The translations under genes were made by a program, and so were the position numbers. This document shows, piece by piece, positions 4,230 to 12,912 of a DNA stretch of 21,914 nucleotides. Location of the stretch: positions 1-21,914 of the IMG/VR virus record IMGVR_UViG_3300042525_000235; one strand, written 5' to 3'. Numbering within the stretch: the first letter of the stretch is position 1; every line of letters begins with the position of its first letter. The DNA comes from a virus. The notes beneath the pieces were generated by a model. The model was not told the DNA's origin. It saw only the letters and a list, made by a program, of their open reading frames with translations, and ran no database searches.

Positions 4230-4284
4230 GGCTGTCTCCTGCGGCTGGGCCGCGTGTGCGCCGCGCTCCATGCGCGACGGGTTG

Positions 4285-5319: not shown

Positions 5320-5703
5320 TCAGCGGAGTCTTGCACCCCGTGCCGCAATGATCGCCCGCATGGCCCGCTGCGTCAAGTCGAACCGCACCGACTGTGAGAT
5401 GCCCTCCCACTGGATCGCGCGGCGTCGGATCGTCCTGACGGACACGCCCAGTAGCCGCGCGTGTTCGCGGCGGCACGGCGTGAGGTGCAGCGGCATGAGG
5501 TCAAGGACCAGTCCGACCTCGACAAGCCGACGCACTAGCGGCGGCAGCGCCGAATCGTCCCGCACCATTCGCGCCGTCGCGATGGCCTCGGACAGAGCGA
5601 CGGGATGGAATACGCGCTCGTCCTCGTCAGCGATTCCAAGTTGCGCGCGGACGCTTCGGGTTCCGGGTTCCTCGATGCGTAGGAGGTTGGTCAGCCATTT
5701 CAC
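5320..5703 (-). CDS. helix-turn-helix DNA-binding protein
   Basis: The product is 127 residues starting at GTG 5703, after GGGAGGTGCGGC and overlapping the RecT stop as GTGA. Residues about 77-100 (CRREHARLLGVSVRTIRRRA) form a helix-turn-helix in which the second helix (SVRTIRRRAIQW) would read DNA. The N-terminal 60 residues are helical (VALSEAIATARMVRDD, LPPLVRRLVEVGLVLDL). Following directly after RecT and preceding the possible origin, it could be an origin-binding or operon-control protein. It could also be a late-gene activator. The HTH is clear; the role is inference. Confidence 0.7.
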   Translation of the reverse strand: MKWLTNLLRIEEPGTRSVRAQLGIADEDERVFHPVALSEAIATARMVRDDSALPPLVRRLVEVGLVLDLMPLHLTPCRREHARLLGVSVRTIRRRAIQWEGISQSVRFDLTQRAMRAIIAARGARLR

Positions 5704-6608
5704 GCCGCACCTCCCTTCACCAACTCGACCACGACCTCGCGCTTGCCGACCAGCGCCAGTCGGCAGTGCGTCGGCTCGGAGAATGCGATGTTGGCCTCAA
5801 TGCCGGACATGATGGCCGGGTCGCGAACCGCAATCGGTTCGTCCCGGCCATCGAGGTCCAGCCGCCACACGGTGTCGCCGCCGGTAGTCTTCACCGCCGC
5901 GATGCGCGCGGTCGGCGGGATCACGAACACGTCGGCATTGGCGGCTGGCAGTGTCTTCGGAGCGGCCTCCTCGCGCCCGCTCGATAGCAGCCGCCGGGTG
6001 TCCTCCTTGCGCTCCTCCGGCGTCATAGAGCGCATCTGCGCGGGGCTGACGGCCTTCGGCGGCGGCGCGTCCTCGGTGATCTCCATTTCCCCGTGCGACT
6101 CGACGTAGACGGGCGCGGCCCCCAGCGCGTCCGGGCAGTGCTGCTTGTACCCGGCGCTGATGCACCGGGCGAACAGCATGGCCTTGGGGTAGCGCCGCCA
6201 GTTGTCCCCGCCCAGCCCCGCGCGCTTGGCGTCCTCGAGCGTGAACGATGTCACCCCGATGGTTTCCCAGCCGCCCGACGCCGTGCGCTGCCGGAACTCG
6301 ACGCGCGCCTCGTCCTCGTTGACCACCGAGCGGTAGTCGTACTTCCCCGCCCGCTTGATCGCCGCCGCCATCAGGTTCGCGGCCAACACGGCCTTCCCCT
6401 TGATGATGTGGAGGCCCGACATGGCGTCGTAGTCTGACAGGCCGAGTCCCCGCCCGATGATCAATTTGGCTGCGGCTGCGGCCTCCGACTGGATGTCGGG
6501 GAACATCCCGGACTGACGGAAAATGCGGGCCACCGTCATCGGGTCGAGGACCGTGGGGACCATCTGCGTCGGCGGCAGCGCCGCCTCCTGACGTGCGAGG
6601 TCACTCAT
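5700..6608 (-). CDS. recT: RecT-family single-strand annealing protein
   Basis: The product is 302 residues. I chose ATG 6608 (MSDLARQEAALPPTQ) over the GTG three codons upstream because GGAGGTG lies eight bases before it. Hallmarks are in order: the KLIIGRGLGLSDYDAMSGLH segment (48-67), IKGKAVLAANLMAAAIKRAG (69-88), the EFRQR strand pair, SFTLEDAKRAGLG (121-133), and NWRRYPKAMLFARCISAGYK (136-155) followed by CPDALGAAPVY. These define the RecT/Redbeta-like core that coats single strands and anneals complementary DNA during phage recombination and replication. The C-terminal 120 residues are less conserved. No partner exonuclease gene is visible, though the next gene left of the window could hold one. 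The start overlaps the 31-residue peptide gene by 8 bases. Confidence 0.85.
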   Translation of the reverse strand: MSDLARQEAALPPTQMVPTVLDPMTVARIFRQSGMFPDIQSEAAAAAKLIIGRGLGLSDYDAMSGLHIIKGKAVLAANLMAAAIKRAGKYDYRSVVNEDEARVEFRQRTASGGWETIGVTSFTLEDAKRAGLGGDNWRRYPKAMLFARCISAGYKQHCPDALGAAPVYVESHGEMEITEDAPPPKAVSPAQMRSMTPEERKEDTRRLLSSGREEAAPKTLPAANADVFVIPPTARIAAVKTTGGDTVWRLDLDGRDEPIAVRDPAIMSGIEANIAFSEPTHCRLALVGKREVVVELVKGGAA

Positions 6609-6696
6609 CGGAGCCACCTCCGATCAACGCTGCGATTGCGAGTGGGCCGAACACGACCGCCGCTACGACGAGCGGCGTCAAATCCAAGACTGGCAT
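6601..6696 (-). CDS. 31-residue single-pass membrane peptide
   Basis: A short open frame runs from ATG 6696 to TGA 6603-6601. It begins MPVLDLTPLVV and ends IGGGSDE, with about 20 uncharged residues (LVVAAVVFGPLAIAALI) that would span a membrane once. The ribosome site CAGGAGACAGCCC is strong and of the type shared by three other genes here. Its end overlaps the RecT start by 8 bases, so translation may be coupled. It is the first gene of the leftward operon. It could anchor replication proteins or act on the host membrane; no family recognised. Confidence 0.6.
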   Translation of the reverse strand: MPVLDLTPLVVAAVVFGPLAIAALIGGGSDE

Positions 6697-6734
6697 GGGC
6701 TGTCTCCTGTTCCCGTCCGCACCATGCGGAGGGG

Positions 6735-6757
6735 GTGACAATGTGTCACATGGTCAC
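6735..6757. promoter_or_regulatory. 23-bp near-palindrome, probable operator
   Basis: The block reads GTGAC-N-ATGTG-N-CACAT-N-GTCAC, so both arms match everywhere except one position each and the centre. Inside it GTGACA-ATG-TGTCAC (6735-6749) is a perfect shorter dyad. It lies between the leftward early operon (first ATG 6696) and the lone rightward gene, and covers that gene's ATG at 6741. A second dyad of the same type, GACA-AAA-TGTC, lies at 6807-6817. The layout is that of a repressor site between divergent genes. Confidence 0.6.
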
Positions 6758-7088
6758 ACTCTATCGTCAGATCGCGGGACAGGCTACAATTTTGGTCGTG
6801 AATCCGGACAAAATGTCAGTCCCGGCGAAACTCCGGTCCCGCAGGGTCCGCGAGTTCGTCCTGTCGGTGTCGCGCGATCTGCGCGCGCTGGGCGTCCGGC
6901 GCGAGGCTTGCCGATGCCAAGCGGTCATCGCGGTGACATGGGATTGCCTCGACCTGTACACGGTCGCGCTCGATCTCGCGGAGGACGATGACTTGCGCTT
7001 CCTGCTCCAACAGGCGCGCGGCACGATCCTTGCCAGCCTCGTCGCTCAGACGATCAGCGAATCCGCAATCGTCTCGGTGTTGGAGTAG
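6741..7088 (+). CDS. lone plus-strand gene, possible switch regulator
   Basis: The product is 115 residues if it starts at ATG 6741, which has GGAGGGGGTG just upstream. Other starts in frame are GTG 6798 and ATG 6813. GTG 6798 would suit a leaderless message, because TACAAT lies seven bases before it (6785-6790). The protein is helical: a basic stretch (AKLRSRRVREFVLSVSRDL), two Cys (CRCQAV), then a hydrophobic and acidic part (DLYTVALDLAEDDDLRFLL) and ARGTILASLVAQTI. Third codon positions are GC-rich as in its neighbours. No family recognised. Opposite orientation, the palindrome at its start and its position between early and late modules suggest a regulator. Its last 43 bases overlap the end of the 460-residue gene on the other strand. 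Confidence 0.6.
   Translation: MCHMVTLYRQIAGQATILVVNPDKMSVPAKLRSRRVREFVLSVSRDLRALGVRREACRCQAVIAVTWDCLDLYTVALDLAEDDDLRFLLQQARGTILASLVAQTISESAIVSVLE
6785..6790 (+). promoter_or_regulatory. candidate -10 element of the plus-strand gene
   Basis: TACAAT matches TATAAT at 5 of 6 positions, in one of the AT-richer spots nearby. No good -35 is found 15-18 bases upstream, but the 23-bp palindrome ends 27 bases before it, so an activator is possible. If used, transcription would begin at about 6797, at or next to the GTG codon. Confidence 0.3.
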
Positions 7089-11559: not shown

Positions 11560-12912
11560 TCACTGGATCGCCATGTTCATGGTTGCGTCGTACTGCTTGC
11601 CCAGCACCTCGAGGATCTTGGTGAGCGTGCGGAACGAGTCCTCATCCACGTTGCGCTTGCGGCCCATGTCGCCGAAGGCGTTGAACTTGAACGTGCCGCC
11701 AACCGCTTGGATCGCGCCGGACTGCACCGCGCGAGTCGCGCTGATCGCCGCGCTGATCTCCTTGCGGGCCTCGTCCTGGATGTCCTTGATCTTCTCGTCA
11801 CGCTCTTGGATGCGGCGCTGGCGCGCCTCTTCGTCAGCCTTCTTCTTCTCCTCGGCCTCGGCTGCGATCAGGTCGAACCGCTCCTGATACTCCAACTCGA
11901 TCACGCGCAGCCGCTCCGCTGCGGCATCGTCGAACCGCTTCATTTCGTGCTGCGCGTTGGACACCGTGTCCTTGTTCGCGGAGTTCAGCATCATCTTCAC
12001 GCGCAAGTCGCGCTCGCGCTCCATCGCGATCCTCTCGCGCTCGATCTCGCGTTCCATCTCGATGCGAAGCGCGGATTCCTCGTCGCCCGACGCGCGGACC
12101 CGCGCGGCCTCGCGATCTGCCAACGCGTCTGCCATCCTCGTCTCGTTCTCAAACTGGCGGTCGCGGGAGACTTTCTCGAGTTCGCTCAGGATCTTCTCGT
12201 TGGCGGCGAACTCGTCCTGATACGCCTTCTTCCGCGCCGCAAGGCGCTTCTCATCGTCCTCGCGCTTCTTGATCGCGATGGCGTTCTCCTCCATCACGCG
12301 CTCCATGTACGCGGCGTCTTCGGAAAGCCGAGTCGCTGCGGCGGCGCGTTCGCCAGTGATGCCTTCGATGATCCTGTCGCTGATCGAGCGTCCGACCTTG
12401 ACTAGCGATCCCGCAATCGGGATCGAGGAAATCATGTCATTGAGCGCCTGTCCGACCGATTTGTCTCCGCTGATTACGTCGGCCAAGTCCTTCAGCATTC
12501 GGTCGGCCATCGCGATGCCGACAAGACCTCCGATCATGTTGCCGATCTTCTTGTCGCTGAACTGTCCCGCCAGCGCGCCCCCAAGCGCGCTGCCAGTCTG
12601 CTTGCCGAGCGCCTTCCCTGCGGCGCTAGCCGACGCACCGGCGCGCTTCGGCACGTCGCCGAATCCTGCGTCCACCCACTTCGGGATCTCCTTGCGGATG
12701 TCCGGGCCGACTTGCTCCTTGACCACCTTCACGATGTTGGTGACGGCTGGCGGCGCGACAATCGCCGCCGGAGTCGGAGCGGAAGTGGCCGCCGAGAACG
12801 CCGCCATCGCGCGCTTTCCGGCATCCATGAACCGCGACTCGATGTCGCGGAACTGCGCCTCAAGCGCGTTCATCTCGGCCTGTACGGAGATGTTGAGCGT
12901 CCCTGCGTTCAT
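11560..12912 (-). CDS. short tape measure protein
   Basis: The product is 450 residues from ATG 12912, overlapping the end of the frameshift product by ATGA. The N-terminus is helical, residues 105-175 form a Gly/Ala-rich hydrophobic segment (GSALGGALAGQFSDKKIGNM, GGLVGIAMADRML) like the membrane-active part of tape measures, and about 190-400 is a long charged coiled coil (EEKKKADEEARQRRIQERDE). Position right after the G/GT chaperones supports the call. At the usual ~0.15 nm per residue the tail would be near 67 nm, short for a siphovirus. There are no peptidase or lysozyme motifs. Confidence 0.8.
   Translation of the reverse strand: MNAGTLNISVQAEMNALEAQFRDIESRFMDAGKRAMAAFSAATSAPTPAAIVAPPAVTNIVKVVKEQVGPDIRKEIPKWVDAGFGDVPKRAGASASAAGKALGKQTGSALGGALAGQFSDKKIGNMIGGLVGIAMADRMLKDLADVISGDKSVGQALNDMISSIPIAGSLVKVGRSISDRIIEGITGERAAAATRLSEDAAYMERVMEENAIAIKKREDDEKRLAARKKAYQDEFAANEKILSELEKVSRDRQFENETRMADALADREAARVRASGDEESALRIEMEREIERERIAMERERDLRVKMMLNSANKDTVSNAQHEMKRFDDAAAERLRVIELEYQERFDLIAAEAEEKKKADEEARQRRIQERDEKIKDIQDEARKEISAAISATRAVQSGAIQAVGGTFKFNAFGDMGRKRNVDEDSFRTLTKILEVLGKQYDATMNMAIQ

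Follow-up and report, generated by a model that had tools for sequence, protein, structure and literature searches.

A conserved dyad at a predicted early start point and recurrent leader hairpins in an uncultured phage group

Gene layout and relatives

The window (the whole stretch of DNA that was analysed) is a 21.9-kb viral record from an uncultured phage group. Its leftward early operon, on the minus strand, begins with a 31-aa hydrophobic ORF (6601–6696) that is conserved in relatives. This is followed by the gene for a RecT-like annealing protein (5700–6608; ATG 6608, frame open to GTG 6617; phrog_561, E 5.7e-15) and, in third place, by the gene for an HTH protein (5320–5703). The rightward gene (6798–7088, plus strand) encodes a protein of 96 aa that is predicted to be all-helical (AlphaFold2, pLDDT 85). 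Its 3′ end overlaps that of the leftward tail gene by about 43 bp (7046–7088).

Relatives were collected by searches with the rightward, RecT-like, and HTH proteins and were found in other uncultured viral contigs, with identities of the rightward protein from 97% down to about 40% or lower. The gene order is shared: a leftward tail gene is followed by the rightward gene, then (in the nearer relatives) by the 31-aa hydrophobic ORF, and last by the leftward RecT-like and HTH genes. Neither the rightward nor the HTH protein was found in the host genome contigs and named phages of the collections searched; only distant RecT and capsid relatives turned up there.

Start of the rightward gene

The rightward gene itself is real, as judged from its homologues and its codon-position bias. 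A previous reading of the window, made from its letters (the sequence-only reading), had placed the start at ATG 6741, in the centre of the dyad GTGACA-ATG-TGTCAC (6735–6749, dyad 1), and had proposed a translational switch with the AUG in a triloop beside a strong ribosome site. It is true that this codon has a GGAGG at a suitable spacing upstream and that the RNA is able to fold into a hairpin that would hide the start. However, the codon is ATC in L002, L003, L005, and L057, in all of which paired changes maintain the dyad, and the presumed ribosome site GGAGGGGG overlaps one arm of a conserved hairpin in the leftward leader (6716–6730, see below). The coding signal begins at 6798, an outcome that the sequence-only reading had itself named as speaking against the switch. 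When the window is compared with L057, the segment 6741–6797 carries one synonymous and five nonsynonymous codon changes, spread evenly over the codon positions (2/2/2, no codon bias), whereas 6798–7085 carries nine synonymous and three nonsynonymous changes (codon positions 1/2/11). Protein similarity to the more distant clades, too, in most cases sets in at the downstream start or close to it.

In the more distant relatives, the start codon equivalent to GTG 6798 is usually located about 7–9 bases past a −10-like box (TACACT, TATATT, or TATCCT) and is not preceded by a Shine–Dalgarno site. The corresponding box in the window, TACAAT (6785–6790, plus strand), would belong to a leaderless-type rightward promoter and lies 7 nt before GTG 6798, a distance that is similar in most relatives. 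The leaderless arrangement is thus found in the window and in most relatives; the exceptions are L074 and L078, both with a Shine–Dalgarno site. The ATC codons in relatives, the onset of codon bias at 6798, and the −10-like box ahead of the downstream start together indicate that the gene most likely starts at GTG 6798, 57 bases past ATG 6741, as a leaderless-type message, and a start at ATG 6741 hidden by a hairpin is very improbable.

The rightward protein gave no match in Pfam, PHROG, NCBIfam, or PDB and no fold match. Its assignment as a known regulator was rejected on these grounds.

Conservation of dyad 1

Dyad 1 (core GACA-N3-TGTC) and a second dyad, GACA-AAA-TGTC (6807–6817), are both present as had been described, with their centres 70 bp apart. 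The window contains four copies of the motif GACANNNTGTC where 0.42 would be expected, and none of 100 shuffles reached this number. Dyads with 6-bp arms and a 3-nt centre are in themselves unremarkable in a GC-rich sequence such as this one (the window has 19, shuffles have 8), so the weight given to dyad 1 rests on its conservation. The 23-bp near-palindrome reported around it exists in the window (10/11 pairs), but its pairing falls to 7/11, 5/11, 5/11, and 3/11 in four relatives, each of which keeps all six arm pairs of the inner 15-bp dyad. The longer palindrome was rejected as a functional unit because its pairing is not conserved in the closest relatives.

The conservation, covariation, and position of dyad 1, like the gene start, were established by comparison. 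The core GACA-N3-TGTC stands at one position in all main-clade relatives, and it was recovered at the same place, with compensating arm changes, in 11 distinct relatives. Among these 11, the inner four pairs (GACA/TGTC) do not change, apart from a single mismatch at one site; the central three bases are variable, and the two arm pairs that come next change symmetrically only (T-A/G-C and G-C/C-G/A-T, respectively). In the nearest clade the element reads GGGACA-ATC-TGTCCC, so that the dyad persists where the ATG does not. The two outer arm pairs are paired in every case, compared with 44% after arms had been swapped between relatives. The covariation exceeds that of all 500 shuffles and of every slid control; related sequences can beat shuffles without any structure, and the slid controls retain this relatedness. 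No G-U pairs occur in the arms. The form CGGACA-N3-TGTCCG is found once per locus, always at the dyad 1 position, and in one clade the half-sites stand in reversed order (TGTCCG-N4-CGGACA).

A copy of GGACACCGTGTCC is located at 11959–11971, within a late gene; in two related records (G004 and G007), the motif is likewise seen once at a position other than the early promoter. The copy at 11959–11971 is probably a coding coincidence.

The second dyad lies within codons 4–7 of the rightward gene, at about +10 to +20 of the transcript predicted for it. Its core is identical to the dyad 1 core of other genomes. Its presence stands, but its conservation is confined to the window's own clade (L001/L002/L003), with no sequence divergence within the dyad. 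It may be a second operator.

Putative leftward early promoter

A −10-like TAGAGT (6758–6763, minus strand) lies within the conserved CGATAGAG, is itself conserved in relatives, and is preceded by a weak −35 TAGCCT (6781–6786, minus strand); both are assigned to a putative leftward early promoter. In the relatives the leftward layout comprises a −35 (TTGACT, TCGACA, or TAGACG), a −10 within CGATA/CGATG, the dyad, a second hairpin, a Shine–Dalgarno site, and the first early ORF. A promoter scan gave better leftward promoters in L068 and L074; it found none in the window itself, the putative leftward promoter of which scores poorly. The distance from the −10 to the dyad is nearly constant, whereas that from the dyad to the rightward start ranges from about 60 to 130 nt across relatives, and a tie between the dyad and the rightward promoter was rejected because of this wide variation. 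Dyad 1 would cover approximately +2 to +16 of the transcript from the predicted leftward promoter.

Leader hairpins

The second element of the leftward leader is the hairpin TCCGC-ATGGT-GCGGA (6716–6730, minus strand; UCCGC-AUGGU-GCGGA as RNA), which stands upstream of the Shine–Dalgarno sequence AGGAG (6704–6708) of the early mRNA. Its inner five pairs always form in 31 distinct relatives, although the stems vary widely in sequence, and in two instances the pair is G-U in the mRNA sense. With the register set by hand on the loop, the pentaloop reads R-N-G-N-N, its third base being G in 28/28 cases, and the remaining three relatives carry 4-base ANGA loops. Variable stems with a kept loop are the opposite of the pattern seen in dyad 1 and fit an RNA hairpin.

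Hairpins of the same type precede the Shine–Dalgarno sites of other early genes. Two further ones were found on the minus strand of the window: CGCGC-ATGGA-GCGCG (4262–4276), with a −10-like box on one side and an AGGAG-ATG start on the other, and GCCGC-AGGA-GCGGC (1768–1781), before AGGAG and an ATG at 1756. Five are present within 6.3 kb of L096 (at 2074, 4406, 4707, 5136, and 5783) and five likewise in L104. L129 carries three (2018, 4657, and 5162), with the loop ACGAU three times, and L095 two (1688 and 4647), with the identical loop AGGUC on unrelated stems. The recurrent loop is A-N-G-R-N (or ANGA), just upstream of AGGAG and ATG, and the loop type is similar within a genome. In a control that placed no constraint on the loop, the early strand had 67 distinct hairpins with 5-nt loops ahead of a Shine–Dalgarno site and start, compared with 11 for the other strand; loops with A1 and G3 made up 41/67 of the sense and 1/11 of the antisense hairpins, counts that include homologous copies and are not fully independent.

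Leader hairpins were also seen in the corresponding place in L017–L052, which are RecT operons of a more distant group that lack the rightward gene. Here, the loop is RCGUU (or RCGU), the hairpin lies past promoters of the TTGAC-TATA type, and in many of these leaders a second hairpin, GCGCGG-CGNN-CCGCGC, then follows.

Several known elements were compared with these hairpins. CsrA/RsmA-type sites present ANGGA in a hairpin loop. Loops of this kind (ACGGA, AAGGA, or AUGGA) are found beside the ribosome site in one clade, whereas other clades have ACGAU, AGGUC, or AAGAC; ANGGA is thus restricted to some clades or copies, and the loops in the window are AUGGU, AUGGA, and AGGA. No CsrA gene was found in 12 related records. 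The SAS/ESAS elements of Cluster K mycobacteriophages and Cluster EF phages are likewise repeated elements, some of which contain inverted repeats, that stand directly upstream of the starts of non-structural genes (PMC3203893, PMC7302621). They are, however, conserved in sequence, whereas the hairpins described here have unrelated stems and keep only the loop. The 13-bp SAS sequence GGGATAGGAGCCC, which lies at the ribosome site, gave 0 matches in the window with up to 2 mismatches allowed.

A scan against Rfam gave no match. The literature was searched for operators with leaderless repressors, for start-point autorepression, and for conserved phage hairpins adjacent to Shine–Dalgarno sites, and nothing matching was found. 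The R-N-G-N-N hairpin may be a new type of RNA element that accompanies the starts of several early genes; its loop would be recognised by RNA polymerase or by an RNA-binding factor from the phage or the host, and we put this at a little short of an even chance. The leader hairpin is the more novel element of the two, compared with dyad 1.

Dyad 1 as operator or as RNA

Start-point operators of Cro/LacI-type repressors are short palindromes with fixed half-sites and a free centre that lie over the start point of a promoter. Dyad 1 resembles them in being a conserved palindrome with fixed half-sites, and an HTH gene is located inside the operon that it would control. It differs in that the HTH protein is without a clear family and in that a genome has a single site, or two in the case of the window's clade. 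The fixed half-sites, the free centre, the lack of G-U pairs, and the clade with reversed half-sites point to protein binding of DNA.

Dyad 1 could also act as RNA, as a hairpin at the 5′ end of the leftward early mRNA which, together with the leader hairpin, would stabilise the message or modify RNA polymerase. Two tandem hairpins do lie directly past the predicted start point in most relatives, the leader of the window folds into both of them, and tandem leader hairpins occur in the distant RecT operons as well. The put RNA of HK022 is a pair of stem-loops located immediately past an early promoter; put elements have sequence in common, and their target is RNA polymerase (PMC9378689). In its arrangement, put RNA is the nearest analogue of the tandem hairpins after the putative early promoter, and it differs from them in that here the stems of the second hairpin vary freely, the loop is conserved, and copies stand before several genes. 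For dyad 1, however, the inner stem is the fixed part and the centre the variable one, G-U pairs are lacking, and one relative would carry an A-C mismatch in the mRNA sense. Moreover, the half-sites are reversed in one clade, loss of the dyad tracks the HTH protein, and the folding energy of the window's leader is not unusual (z −0.99). An RNA function of dyad 1, argued by analogy with put, is considered unlikely.

The suggestion of a repressor operator in the sequence-only reading is supported: the inner dyad is conserved, its changes are symmetric, and it is located at the predicted leftward early start point, between the late and early modules. We consider it somewhat probable that dyad 1 is an operator on this start point, with the HTH protein as the most likely repressor and the rightward gene divergent and leaderless.

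Candidate binder of dyad 1

The HTH protein (5320–5703) is proposed as the binder of dyad 1, an assignment that is tentative and falls below an even chance. Its predicted HTH helices (78–85 and 89–100) have a high pLDDT of 88; Pfam HTH matches are weak, and its structural neighbours are mostly DNA-binding proteins, none of them significant. The recognition helix follows the half-sites: it reads RT[IVL]xR[RK] in lineages with GGACA half-sites and is altered where these are absent (L112, L113, L114, L116, L120–L125, L126/L128, L127, and L129). A tree was built from the rightward and HTH proteins with the HTH region left out. Most lineages without the dyad lie outside the dyad carriers on this tree, and L114 nests among them (support 0.85), which means that the dyad and the helix motif were lost together at least once. 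The correlation between helix and dyad, drawn from sequences and involving few independent events, is suggestive of the HTH protein as the binder.

In one clade without the dyad (L120, L121, L122, L124, and L125), another inverted repeat in the early promoter region, CGATATGG-N6/7-CC(A/G)TATCG, extends over the −10 and the start, and the HTH recognition helix is a different one (HDRKTIASR). This repeat is possibly an operator of different specificity.

The product of the rightward gene might instead bind the operator, as a classical divergent regulator: the gene is small, divergent, and adjoins dyad 1, and the conserved N-terminal part of its product is rich in arginine (KLRARRVR). Against this, the protein has no match to a DNA-binding fold or family, and both the gene and its KLKARRVREHV segment are retained in L066/L114, which lacks the dyad. 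This possibility is regarded as quite improbable.

With the HTH protein as the favoured repressor, dyad 1 would be a DNA operator over the start point of the promoter that drives the 31-aa ORF and the RecT-like and HTH genes. A dimeric repressor would bind the GGACA-type half-sites and block initiation, which would place early transcription under Cro-like negative feedback. Divergent transcription of the rightward gene, with its leaderless-type start at GTG 6798, would come from an overlapping back-to-back promoter. In the window's clade, the second site (6807–6817) could allow the same repressor to act on the rightward promoter as well.

Conclusion

The start of a conserved gene has been corrected. 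A testable candidate pair of regulator and operator is now available for a phage group for which the collections searched gave neither a close named relative nor a copy integrated in a host. Free stems with a kept loop are a signature of loop recognition, and the leader hairpins may be a sign that the early genes of these phages are served by a post-transcriptional or antitermination system.
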